From positions 1-23,131 of IMG/VR virus record IMGVR_UViG_3300034283_001143: a stretch of DNA of 23,131 nucleotides; one strand, given 5' to 3'. Source of the stretch: a virus. The notes under the pieces were generated by a model. The model worked only from the letters and a program-made list of their open reading frames with translations, did no database searches and was not told the DNA's origin. Position numbers and translations under genes: made by a program. This document shows, piece after piece, positions 1,550 through 7,195 of the stretch (position 1 is its first letter; every line of letters starts with the position of its first letter).

Positions 1550-1559
1550 TAAGGTATTG

Positions 1560-1573
1560 ACACCGAAAGGTGT
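1560..1573 (+). promoter_or_regulatory. 5' UTR hairpin with GAAA loop before the lysozyme gene
   Basis: ACACC-GAAA-GGTGT is a perfect 5-bp stem closed by a GNRA tetraloop, just after the expected transcription start and 22 bases before the start codon. It could stabilise or tune the lysin message. Confidence 0.5.
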
Positions 1574-1595
1574 TATTTTACTTATAGGAGGATCT

Positions 1596-2126
1596 ATGAA
1601 TAAAGAAGATTTTATTACTGGAATTGCCGGAAGTTTTATTGCTGCCGTAGTTGGTTTAACTGGGGCTAACGCAAATCTAGAAGAAATTGTACCTATAGAA
1701 ACTGCAAATGAAAAAGTTGAGTCGGGGACTCCGTCCGCAATAAAAGCAAAATATTCTAACGTTACAACCCTGTCAGATAAAGAGTTAAAGGTTTTATTGA
1801 AAGCGGTTGGCTTTGACGGACAAGGTTTAAAAATGGCATGGGCAGTTGCTAAAAAAGAAAGCAATGGCAGGCCTCTGGCCTTTAACGGCAACAAGGACAC
1901 TGGCGACCACTCGTTTGGAATATTTCAGATTAATATGAATGGAAGATTAATGGAGGATAGACTAGAAAAATTTAATCTTAACTCGGTCTCTGATCTTTTT
2001 AATCCAGTAACCAATGCAGAGATTGCTTTCTACATGACAAAAGGCGGAAAAGATTGGTCATCTTGGACTTATCTTGAGGGACAAAGAATTAAAGAATTTT
2101 TAACTAAATATCCGACAATTAATTAA
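1596..2126 (+). CDS. Lysozyme/transglycosylase-fold peptidoglycan hydrolase (endolysin or virion lysin)
   Basis: A 176-residue protein. Residues about 75-165 form an SLT/lysozyme-like domain: AWAVAKKESNGRP carries the candidate catalytic Glu88, followed by DHSFGIFQINM at 104-114, the usual S-x-G-x-FQIN block that lines the cleft. The expected reaction is cleavage of the MurNAc-GlcNAc bond of host peptidoglycan. Residues 7-25 are hydrophobic and end near GANA, so the N terminus may be a signal peptide or a signal-arrest-release segment, letting the enzyme reach the wall without a pore. The start at 1596 is chosen for its AGGAGG ribosome site; a longer frame from TTG at 1557 would begin inside the leader hairpin region. 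The gene is inverted among leftward genes and has its own consensus promoter. Confidence 0.8.
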   Translation: MNKEDFITGIAGSFIAAVVGLTGANANLEEIVPIETANEKVESGTPSAIKAKYSNVTTLSDKELKVLLKAVGFDGQGLKMAWAVAKKESNGRPLAFNGNKDTGDHSFGIFQINMNGRLMEDRLEKFNLNSVSDLFNPVTNAEIAFYMTKGGKDWSSWTYLEGQRIKEFLTKYPTIN

Positions 2127-2746
2127 AAATAGGCAATAGCCGTATATTTTGTTCCAGAAGTAACTCTAAGTTCTCTGTGTCTATAGTTTTTGTTTGCTGG
2201 ATATATCAAAACATCTCCTGCAGATAAACTTATAATTTCGTTGCCAACTCTATTTTCAAATTGAAATTCACCACCAGCATAGTTGTCGTTTAATGCTATA
2301 ACAATTGTATAAAAATGTTTTTGTCCATCTCTATCTAAATCATCGTGAAAATCAGAACTTTCAATTTGTTCGTAAATTGTAAAATTTTTTATTTTTTTTA
2401 TTGACAGTTCGTATTCTTTTATATAATCATACAGAAAGGGAAAGGCATAGTCAATTAATTCAGATTTTAAATTACTTTTTTTAATAGATTGCCCTAAATT
2501 GTTTGCCACTAAGTTAATTTCTGAAATTACTAAATTAGGAACCAATAAAAAATTATCTTCGCTTGGCAAGTTAATAACTTTTTGATTGACAATATGATCA
2601 GTATCTCTAATATTTTTTAAAGAAGAAATGCTCCATACATTTTTTGTTGATGGCTCATTGTTTACTGTCTGTAACAATTCTATAAAATTTTTATTTTTAT
2701 TCTCAGAATAAAGGATAACAAAGTTATCTAAAAAAGTTTTATTCAT
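2123..2746 (-). CDS. 2-oxoglutarate/Fe(II)-dependent oxygenase (prolyl-hydroxylase-like)
   Basis: A 207-residue protein. The C-terminal half is a double-stranded beta-helix oxygenase with all expected ligands in order: H134-x-D136 in FHDDLDRDG, GGEFQF at 158-163, SAGDVLIYPA at 175-184, the distal H190, and K200 in TSGTKYTA ten residues later as the likely 2-oxoglutarate carboxylate binder. This is the layout of prolyl-4-hydroxylase-type enzymes. The N-terminal half is lysine/asparagine-rich and unassigned. It ends convergently against the lysozyme gene and follows the two Hint proteins closely, so a virion protein could be its substrate; that is inference. Confidence 0.8.
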   Translation of the reverse strand: MNKTFLDNFVILYSENKNKNFIELLQTVNNEPSTKNVWSISSLKNIRDTDHIVNQKVINLPSEDNFLLVPNLVISEINLVANNLGQSIKKSNLKSELIDYAFPFLYDYIKEYELSIKKIKNFTIYEQIESSDFHDDLDRDGQKHFYTIVIALNDNYAGGEFQFENRVGNEIISLSAGDVLIYPANKNYRHRELRVTSGTKYTAIAYF

Positions 2747-2748
2747 AA

Positions 2749-3360
2749 TTAATTTTCTTCCATTATTAAATGACTAAGACATATAAAGTTTTCGGTTAAA
2801 AAAAAGTAATTATCTAAAAGTACTAAAGAAACTGAAATTTGGTTAGAAATTTTTGATTCAAAATCTTCAATTTTTGTTTTTAAAAATGGTTGATCTGGGT
2901 TAACAAAAATATTGTCATCTAAAGTTTCTACATTTAGATTAAAAGGCTTAGAATCTAAAGATTGAATAAAATAGTTTTCTTCATTTTCACTAGATATCAT
3001 TTTACCAATAATACTATCTGCATTTTTTAAATACATGTGATCTACCTCTAAATCTTTCTGTATTAATATTGGATCTATTCCTGACAATATATTGTTGTTT
3101 AAACTTTTAAAATTTCCAAAATTTTTATGAACAAAAACAGAATATACTGTTGCAGAACACAAAACAGTATCTCCTGTTTGAATAAAAAATCCTTCTCTTT
3201 TGTTATTTAATTTTATGTATCGATGATAAAATTCTGAATGAGTTAAAATTTCTGAATCTTTTGTTTTAATAGATAAAATTTTATCACCAAACTGTAAATC
3301 TTCAATGTTTTTTAAAGTTTTATCCTCAAGATATACTTTTGTTCCAATTGGGAATCCCAT
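2749..3360 (-). CDS. Degenerate Hint (intein/hedgehog-type) domain protein
   Basis: A 203-residue protein opening GFPIGTKVYLEDKTLKNIE and continuing DLQFGDKILSI. This matches the first block of Hint domains (C-x-x-GTxV-x-L-x-DG-x-x-K-x-IEDLxVGDxVLS), except that the position of the nucleophilic cysteine is glycine (residue 2). No terminal His-Asn is seen, and the rest is a beta-rich region ending FICLSHLIMEEN. It is therefore probably unable to self-cleave in the classical way. It directly follows the Hint-bearing repeat protein (6 bases apart) and precedes the oxygenase. It could be a structural relic, or a partner acting on the upstream protein. Confidence 0.55.
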   Translation of the reverse strand: MGFPIGTKVYLEDKTLKNIEDLQFGDKILSIKTKDSEILTHSEFYHRYIKLNNKREGFFIQTGDTVLCSATVYSVFVHKNFGNFKSLNNNILSGIDPILIQKDLEVDHMYLKNADSIIGKMISSENEENYFIQSLDSKPFNLNVETLDDNIFVNPDQPFLKTKIEDFESKISNQISVSLVLLDNYFFLTENFICLSHLIMEEN

Positions 3361-3365
3361 AAGGC

Positions 3366-4310
3366 CTACTTATTATGCACTAAATAATTACCCGCAATAA
3401 ACCAATCTGCTGGCTCACAACTAAATTGATAAACAGTTGTGTCTTTTATTAATGGAGTTATAGTTTCAATTAAAACTTCTGTAAAACTTCCATCTTCATT
3501 TACTTGTATCAAATAATCTCCGACCTGTAGAGCCCCTGTTGGAACTACTTGATAAAAGTCATTTGATTTTGTAAACATTGGCTGACTAATTGAAAATAAT
3601 TTTTCTAAATCATCATTAAAATATATTACTTCGTTTTTTGCAAAAGGCTCTATAGCAACAATGCGTGTGGTTGTTTTGTTTAATGGTGTAAGAGTTTTTG
3701 AAATCATTCCTACATAATCAAAATCATATTGCCCTGTAATATCGCTTTGTGGAATTTCTAATAAATTAACGCTGTCAATTTCATCATCAACTTTTAGGTC
3801 TTTGGCTGCAATTGGGCCATTAGGTGTGCTAATTAAAGTGTTTTCATCTATGCAGTTTGGTGGCGTAAAACTAAAAGGCCCAGGATTTGGTGCAAAAGAA
3901 AAAACTGGAGTAAAGCCAAATGGGGTAAAACCAAATGGGGTAAAACCAAAAGAAACAACTGGGGTGAAACCAAAAGGAGTAAAACCAAAAGAAACAACTG
4001 GGGTAAAACCAAAAGCAACAACTGGGGTGAAACCAAAAGGAGTAAAACCAAATGCTCCGAATGGAGTAAAACTAAAAGTATAATTTACTAAATTTACATT
4101 AGTACCAACAGCCTGAACTTCTCCTGCCACAATGCTTTGAGATTTAATTGTGTTATTTAGCCCAGCATCTCCTGTGTTTTCGTTTGTTGTGTTATAAACA
4201 AAGCCAGCGTTAGTTAAATTTGTTTCTGCAGTAGTTTTTGCAACTCCAACTACGTTTGGTATTGAGTTTTTTCGTGATCCTTTATTTCCACGTCCGATAT
4301 TTTTTGCCAT
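3366..4310 (-). CDS. PASTA - FGFTP repeat - Hint autoprocessing protein
   Basis: A 314-residue protein in three parts. Residues about 17-77 are a PASTA domain (IPNVVGVAKTTAETNLTNAGF, then Q-S-x-x-AGEVQAVGTNVNL), a fold that binds peptidoglycan muropeptides in kinases and penicillin-binding proteins. Residues 78-150 are a phenylalanine-rich array with eight FGFTP units separated by VVA/VVS. Residues 153-313 look like a Hint domain: the candidate nucleophile Cys153 starts CIDENTLISTPNGPI, AAKDLKVDDEI follows, and the end is ADWFIAGNYLVHNK, the usual terminal block with His-Asn followed by one Lys. The expected chemistry is N-S acyl shift at Cys153, cutting the repeat segment off. The start at 4310 is used because it overlaps the upstream stop (TAATG); an upstream ATG at 4340 would add 10 residues inside the previous gene. 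Confidence 0.75.
   Translation of the reverse strand: MAKNIGRGNKGSRKNSIPNVVGVAKTTAETNLTNAGFVYNTTNENTGDAGLNNTIKSQSIVAGEVQAVGTNVNLVNYTFSFTPFGAFGFTPFGFTPVVAFGFTPVVSFGFTPFGFTPVVSFGFTPFGFTPFGFTPVFSFAPNPGPFSFTPPNCIDENTLISTPNGPIAAKDLKVDDEIDSVNLLEIPQSDITGQYDFDYVGMISKTLTPLNKTTTRIVAIEPFAKNEVIYFNDDLEKLFSISQPMFTKSNDFYQVVPTGALQVGDYLIQVNEDGSFTEVLIETITPLIKDTTVYQFSCEPADWFIAGNYLVHNK
3861..4078 (-). repeat. FGFTP-coding tandem repeat
   Basis: The DNA is built from 15-base units encoding FGFTP, singly or in pairs, spaced by 9-base VVS/VVA codons. Units are nearly identical at the DNA level, suggesting recent expansion and likely length variation between related phages. Confidence 0.85.
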
Positions 4311-4930
4311 TATGCAACCAAATCTCCCATAGCAACCCAAGTATTTGCTGCACGTTTTACTAGAGTTACGCTAGACCACTGTGCTCTAATTTTTAGACCT
4401 GGGGTAGCATTTACTGTAACTCCCGATGCTCCTGCAAGTGTAACTTGAGAAGAAGAAGTTTGTAAAATATCAATAGCAGTTCCAATTGGAAAGTCAACAC
4501 TAGAGTCAAGTGGGACCGTTAATGTTCCTCCAGCAGACATTTCTATCATTTTAAAAGAATCTGAAATAACAAGAGTGTAAGAAGATGATTGTTGATTAAA
4601 TGTGTATAAAGGATCTACGATTGATAACCAATTTGTTCCATCATAAACCTGTAAATCATTTATAACACTTCCGCCAGCATTTTGTTTTAAAAATATAATA
4701 GTTCCGTAAATTGGTGTTGGAATTGCTGCTAATGCTGCTGCTGGGTTTAAGAATATATTAACATTTTTTGCAATTACGGTAGAGTTTAAAGATACAGTTG
4801 AATCAAATGTTTGCCCTGCAGTCCAAGTGTATGCTGCTGCAGTGTTTACTTTACCTGCAAGTTCATACCACTGGTCGGTGGCTTCATCATAAACATATCC
4901 TGGCCTTGGTGTTGAATTAAATGTTGCCAT
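4310..4930 (-). CDS. Tail-fibre/virion protein with RPGYVYD N-terminal tag
   Basis: A 206-residue protein. The N terminus (RPGYVYDEATDQWYELAGKV) resembles a short attachment module found at the start of phage fibre proteins. A beta-rich region follows with TWTAGQTFDSTVSLNSTVI, VYDGTNWLSI and a C-terminal part resembling a fibre tip (GASGVTVNATPGLKIRAQW). No catalytic motif is seen. It overlaps both neighbours by one base, in a strongly coupled run of structural genes, so a minor virion or fibre component is the likely role. Confidence 0.6.
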   Translation of the reverse strand: MATFNSTPRPGYVYDEATDQWYELAGKVNTAAAYTWTAGQTFDSTVSLNSTVIAKNVNIFLNPAAALAAIPTPIYGTIIFLKQNAGGSVINDLQVYDGTNWLSIVDPLYTFNQQSSSYTLVISDSFKMIEMSAGGTLTVPLDSSVDFPIGTAIDILQTSSSQVTLAGASGVTVNATPGLKIRAQWSSVTLVKRAANTWVAMGDLVA

Positions 4931-6472: not shown

Positions 6473-7195
6473 TTAACAGATAGAAATAGTCATGCTTTTT
6501 AAAATCATATCTGAGGGGAAGTCAGTCCTTATTTGTGGCTTTGCTATGCCTTTAAAAGATGCATCTTCTATATACAAGGTTTGATCTATAACAAAATCAT
6601 AAGTATTTTGATATTTTAAAGATCCCACAAAATTTACATGCTCTGTGTTATTTTTTGTAAAAAGCGTTCTTACCCAAACGTCAGTGTTTGCAGAGTAAGT
6701 TGATAATTGAATACTGTAAGAAATCTGTATTTTTGTTCCTACCTTAAGGCCTAAGAAATTAAACCCTTGTGCTTCGTCAATCCATAGCCGTTCGTTGTCT
6801 TTGGGCAAAAACTCTTCATTACTTAACTTTCTTTTAAAATTAAGAGTTACCCAACCTTTATCTCCTTCGGTTATTCCTAAATTTATTTTTTGTGTTTGCG
6901 AATTATAATATTTTGCCCAACCTGGTTGTTGTCCAGATAAAGATATTCCGTCTTTACCAGGCTTTCCTTCTTTTCCTTTTGCACCTGGAGGCCCTGTAAG
7001 TCCAGGGTCGCCTTTAGGGCCTTGTGCGCCTTCTAGTCCTGGTAAACCTTGGGGTCCTTGTGGACCTTGAATTGGAACATATGTTTGAGGTGTGGGAAAA
7101 GTTTCTGGGGTTATGTTTTGTTGCGCTTCTATAACTTTTTCAATATATGCATCTTTTGTTGCAAATGGCGTTGGCACGTTTTTACTTATTGCCAT
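6473..7195 (-). CDS. Collagen-like tail-fibre protein
   Basis: A 240-residue protein. Residues 44-85 form about fourteen uninterrupted Gly-X-Y triplets ([13 protein letters not shown] and onward), expected to form a trimeric collagen helix. The N-terminal 43 residues are a probable attachment segment ([15 protein letters not shown]). The C-terminal 150 residues form a predicted beta-sandwich head ([20 protein letters not shown], then [19 protein letters not shown]), likely the receptor- or glycan-facing end. Collagen triplets are common in phage fibres. The gene follows the 32-residue peptide gene by four bases. Confidence 0.75.

Follow-up and report, generated by a model that had tools for sequence, protein, structure and literature searches.

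In T-even phages, the gene of the tip adhesin gp38 follows the gp37 fibre gene. Other phage fibres and spikes carry S74 or intramolecular chaperone domains, which are located at the C-terminus and remove themselves (PMC10579305, PMC7824862). The sole residues common to all class 1 inteins are an initial Ser or Cys and a final Asn, Gln or Asp; some inteins tolerate loss of the block-B His, and BIL domains, which have no +1 nucleophile, give mainly cleaved products (PMC7664689). The window analyzed here, an IMG/VR virus record of 23,131 bases, encodes a protein with a C-terminal Hint domain, a member of a large and apparently undescribed family of probable fibre-tip proteins with a real, conserved architecture.

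The array protein and its place behind a fibre gene

The protein joins a PASTA domain, an aromatic and proline-rich array and the Hint domain (Table 1). The match to PASTA (PF03793) reaches 26.5 bits with an E-value of 6.1e-6, above the Pfam cut-off of 23.2 bits. In the array, the exact FGFTP units start at residues 87, 92, 100, 108, 113, 121, 126, and 131, and the 75 residues include 23 Phe, 14 Pro, 11 Thr, and 10 Gly (31% Phe and 19% Pro). The units vary at synonymous sites (TTTGGTTTTACTCCT, TTTGGTTTCACCCCA, and others), which indicates that the repeat is maintained at the protein level. The first-pass annotation had described the PASTA domain, the eight FGFTP units, Cys153, and the terminal His-Asn-Lys, all of which were recovered at these positions; its sole wrong particular was a length of 313 residues, as the translation gives 314.

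Table 1. Features of the window around the array gene
Feature	Position	Strand	Remarks
Whole protein (PASTA, FxFTP array, C-terminal Hint)	3366..4310	-	314 aa; ATG at 4310, stop at 3366
PASTA domain, residues 17-75	4086..4262	-	PF03793 passes the Pfam cut-off (E 6.1e-6)
Aromatic/proline array, residues 78-152, eight exact FGFTP units	3855..4079	-	
Hint domain (BIL-type), residues 153-314	3369..3854	-	AlphaFold2, Foldseek, Pfam on relatives, residue table
Upstream fibre protein	4310..4930	-	Residues 101-206: phage minor tail C-terminal domain, phrog_8780
HintB, degenerate Hint, separate ORF	2749..3360	-	Residue 1 not conserved; His-Asn end absent
2OG-Fe(II) oxygenase	2123..2746	-	PF13640, E 1.1e-6; directly after HintB
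Collagen-like fibre protein	6473-7195	-	PF01391, E 6.5e-7; same gene block
Lysozyme-like/SLT domain protein	1557-2126	+	Opposite strand; converges on oxygenase gene

Four further IMG/VR contigs, up to 82 kb long, carry copies of the gene with 100% identity, and comparisons of relatives give the Hint region dN/dS values of 0.08-0.40, showing purifying selection; hence, the ORF is not a chance one. No match to the whole protein was obtained by tblastn against 50,697 records of named phages, and neither PHROGs nor a PDB sequence search recognized it. A genome-collection scan with this single protein returned two MAG contigs, which are perhaps viral. An 80.7-kb contig with the identical gene also has genes for a portal protein, a head protease, and a major head protein, the closest named relatives of which belong to Streptomyces phages (38% identity), and the fibre domain upstream is nearest to the minor tail proteins of Gordonia phages (about 47-50% identity over residues 101-206). 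An actinobacterial phage is therefore likely, with a likely host among the actinobacteria, probably a freshwater one, and the PASTA domain fits such a host. Wall binding by this domain would be a guess from the Pfam match, and PASTA is just one among several interchangeable N-domains.

The start codon of the array gene and the stop codon of the fibre gene before it overlap, and the placement in a virion module that had been proposed agrees with the surrounding block of fibre and virion genes. Among the array ORFs with 1.5 kb of upstream sequence, the fibre gene lies directly upstream of 62 of 69 ORFs (43 of 49 clusters), with a gap of usually 2-59 nt, and these neighbours end in one shared fibre C-terminal domain of ~100 residues. 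A search starting from the fibre domain found further phages in which the next gene encodes another N-domain followed by an aromatic low-complexity array. The sister tip proteins L212-L223 carry (FFPP)n, (YFPP)n, or (FFSPPG)n arrays and many have FK as their last two residues, while in L216 a HYGSF-type array is followed by a Ser1 Hint. In Gordonia phages, the same slot holds a short minor tail or hypothetical protein, and in eight contigs an unrelated protein of 677 residues lies 149 nt from the fibre gene. The slot after the fibre gene looks like a slot for tip proteins, and L212-L223 may represent a broader group of phage tips with aromatic low-complexity arrays. Since the array is common to the members and the fibre C-terminal domain to nearly all neighbours, the array is the best candidate for contact with the fibre, a contact suggested by co-occurrence and gene order.

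Fold and catalytic residues of the Hint domains

Searched against the Pfam Hint families, the query gave nothing above cut-off (best Intein_splicing, E = 0.051), and its relatives match Intein_splicing (best E = 5e-8), Hom_end_hint (1.9e-6), and Hint_2 (4.8e-5). The AlphaFold2 model of residues 146-314, built from 33 sequences, has a pLDDT of 89.8 and a pTM of 0.85. The top Foldseek matches are the BIL domains 6y75 (6.7e-7) and 2lwy (7.9e-7), followed by inteins and by the Hedgehog domain 1at0 (3.6e-5); the best 50 of the 59 PDB matches at E<=0.001 are all inteins, BIL domains, or Hedgehog domains. The Hint fold proposed earlier is borne out by this confident model and its BIL and intein matches, and so is the statement that no real C-extein exists, as one Lys (Lys314) follows His312-Asn313.

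Cys153 occupies the position at which the Hint superfamily has Cys or Ser. The His312-Asn313 end and the non-nucleophilic +1 residue, Lys314, which is also the last residue, are those of an A-type-like BIL domain. A class 1 splicing intein would be followed by a C-extein starting with Cys, Ser, or Thr, in place of which the query has a single Lys, and the sterol-recognition region of the Hedgehog type is absent, the protein stopping at HNK with no room after the Hint. Block B reads Ser-Ile-Ser-Gln instead of the usual Thr-x-x-His; the His is not a condition for Hint membership, because active inteins without it are reported (PMC7664689). It is kept in 50 of 59 domains, and in eight Cys1 members, the query among them, Gln takes its place.

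Scans of IMG/VR yielded ~80 array proteins, which form 57 clusters at 90% identity. The N-domains in front of the array include PASTA, FN3 with a PKD-like domain, and triple laminin-G, and the array is the part common to all FGFTP members. Three endings follow it: Cys1...His-Asn-Lys, Ser1...[His/Phe/Tyr]-Asp-[Ser/Thr/Arg] with a tail, or none, a Hint-like domain being present in 45 of 55 complete clusters and absent from 10. All 59 distinct aligned domains start with Cys (16) or Ser (43), as do those of three further members. This residue 1 is coupled to the C-terminal residue, Cys1 occurring with Asn in 15/16 and Ser1 with Asp in 43/43, and both signatures agree with the class 1 intein residue rule of PMC7664689. 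A single tree branch separates the two, so the coupling reflects one event followed by long retention, and the domains that retain these signatures share ~20-30% identity.

Most members of the Ser1 class have a tail and Ser in the +1 position. For example, L068:6067-6678 and L030:6178-6804 combine Ser1, a block-B His, a His-Asp end, Ser at +1, and a conserved tail of ~35 residues, which resembles an Asp-type intein signature, and the domain might splice the tail on. Among the Cys1 members, two near relatives (L201 and L202) end in HTK instead of HNK and the more distant L025 ends in CHK, so that the C-terminal chemistry is probably not universal in the family. The N-domain of L008 is 92% identical to that of the query and its Hint only 56%, with a dS of 2.0 in the Hint versus 0.52 in the flanks; the Hints have therefore been exchanged between lineages. 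Phages with two fibre/array loci mostly have the same ending at both, and mixed endings within one contig occur in L025 with L076 and in L047 with L136. The near-constant fibre neighbour, the block-B Gln, the Ser1/Asp signature, and the degenerate HintB had not been noted in the first-pass annotation.

HintB is related to the Hint of the array protein by profile-profile comparison (A1 versus A2, E = 1.9e-7), and the A1 profile finds the HintB copies of relatives at 1e-5 to 1e-6. Its model is weak (pLDDT 50) and serves as support only, the five best PDB matches being BIL domains (best 5.7e-4). HintB has G/F/S/A at the residue-1 position and shows that the Hint fold can persist at this locus without catalytic residues. 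All its occurrences found were next to PASTA-array genes, some of which encode an array protein without a Hint, and it is frameshifted in L006 and intact in L007. An origin by detachment from the array protein is disfavoured for HintB, as the window carries both Hints, but a past fission is possible; a binding or chaperone role is also possible. Where the flanks of PASTA-type relatives are long enough, the oxygenase, HintB, and PASTA-array genes are syntenic; as a guess, the oxygenase could hydroxylate prolines in the array or in the collagen-like fibre.

Proposed removal of the Hint domain and alternative readings

Homologues without a Hint end in FSPPFR, FAPPNFR, GRGARIY, and others. In the nearest of them (L022, L023, and L042), FSPPFR or FAPPNFR ends 1-2 residues from the Cys position, and the array/Hint junctions of members with the domain read FSFTPPN|C (query), FTFSPPK|C, FTFSPPS|C, and FGFSPPR|C. 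Because such homologues exist and end there, the N-terminal part needs no Hint to be complete and naturally stops close to the predicted cut, the strongest argument that the domain may be removed in other members. A tree of five flanking genes, with a support of 88/93 for one key branch, places at least two gains or losses of the Hint among eight PASTA-type phages.

We lean, with some reserve, towards a tail-fibre tip adhesin with a removable BIL-type Hint that is cleaved after residue 152. The interchangeable N-domain, here PASTA, would contact the host surface, and the array would associate with the C-terminal domain of the upstream fibre or with other copies of itself, the Hint being a temporary cap. 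Cys153 would attack the Asn152-Cys153 bond in an N-S acyl shift, hydrolysis of the thioester would free the mature residues 1-152 and the end of the array, and cyclization of Asn313 would shed only Lys314. The C-terminal step is unlikely in the HTK and CHK members, and the N-terminal cleavage would be independent of it. Of the two outcomes suggested in the first-pass annotation, release of the repeat segment is plausible, as the Hint-less homologues end almost at residue 152, and such a product would be expected in virions. Hedgehog-style attachment gives way to hydrolytic release as the better default, because Hedgehog is a more distant match to the domain than BIL domains and inteins are.

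Several residues count against cleavage. The query clade has Gln in place of the block-B His, the usual helper of the N-S shift, and at -1 four Cys1 members carry Pro, which is expected to be unfavourable. Together with the HTK and CHK ends, the Gln would suit a Hint that stays uncleaved as a permanent structural or oligomerizing C-terminal domain, its catalysis lost or vestigial in this clade, and the degenerate HintB next door, kept in synteny, offers a precedent. However, even very divergent members all have Cys or Ser as residue 1, whereas HintB is unconstrained at this position, and the Hint-less homologues mark the domain as dispensable for the mature protein; we regard a permanent domain as possible but doubtful. 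A selfish intein remnant or random acquisition with no role for the phage could be imagined from the frequency of inteins in phages and from the exchange seen in L008 (dS 2.0 versus 0.52), but the domain is always C-terminal, is under purifying selection, and is present in most complete clusters (45/55), which makes such an origin very improbable. A mobile intein is ruled out by the C-terminal position without room for a homing endonuclease and by the purifying selection.

The removable cap also has to be weighed against a Hint acting as a ligase, in which an amine of the fibre, a second tip copy, or a wall component attacks the Cys153 thioester, or a Hint that splices itself out and leaves Lys314. 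The Foldseek matches put the domain close to BIL domains, one of which reportedly ligates without nucleophilic side chains. Members that have lost the Asn still end in Lys, the Hint-less homologues of the nearest clade and the sister families often end in K/R, and the Ser +1 and tail of most Ser1 members would also suit splicing. On the other hand, no acceptor was identified, and a terminal Lys is not rare: K/R makes up 18% of the ORF ends in these loci, against which the K/R ends in 6 of 10 Hint-less clusters are suggestive only. Splicing that leaves the terminal Lys is further weakened by the HTK and CHK members, whose ends are incapable of Asn-mediated splicing. We consider ligation or splicing unlikely. 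The version in which the Hint is a virion-assembly ligase, its thioester linking the array end to a fibre or wall molecule, or splices to give a basic C-terminus mimicking that of the Hint-less homologues, is in our view quite unlikely.

Comparison with known systems

The removable cap favoured here would place an intein-related fold in the position of S74-type domains, in a family of probable tip proteins with freely exchanged binding domains. With natural pairs that differ in the presence of a Hint and with two catalytic signatures (Cys1/Asn and Ser1/Asp), the role of cleavage can be tested directly; the domains may also supply new autocleaving tags. The open-access literature yielded no paper that describes the processing of C-terminal Hints in phage virions. 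The "new virion biology" foreseen in the first-pass annotation is nevertheless too strong, as C-terminal Hints are already present, unremarked, in deposited phage tail proteins. Like the query, the "putative tail protein" of Dickeya phage AD1 has its Hint near or at the C-terminus, but with collagen-like repeats and a short C-tail after the His-Asn; the "large intein domain protein" of phage NCTB and the uncultured Caudovirales proteins A0A6J5NY54 ("PASTA_pknB domain containing protein") and A0A6J5MFV5 ("Fibronectin type III") also have a Hint at or near the C-terminus. For none of these proteins was a description of processing or of a family found. By name, size, and match, the last two are probably members of the array family.

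The BIL domains of C. thermocellum (2lwy) and T. thermophila BUBL1 (BIL2, 6y75) share Cys1, the His-Asn end, and the non-nucleophilic +1 residue with the query, which differs from them in its setting as a putative phage tip cap, its one-residue C-extein, its block-B Gln, and a sister class with Ser1/Asp. In the case of the Hedgehog autoprocessing domain (1at0), the Hint fold, the C-terminal position, and possibly the N-terminal cleavage chemistry are alike, but the match is weaker (3.6e-5) and the query has a His-Asn end and no sterol-recognition region. The gp38 tip adhesin of T-even phages and S16 is likewise small, contains repeats, and is encoded directly after the fibre gene; compared with it, the query has a Hint as a putative cap and a Phe/Pro array in place of polyglycine, and a sequence relation is not expected. 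To our knowledge, self-removing C-terminal fibre domains of phages are known so far only as S74/intramolecular chaperone domains, whose fold and Ser/Lys chemistry differ from those of the Hint.
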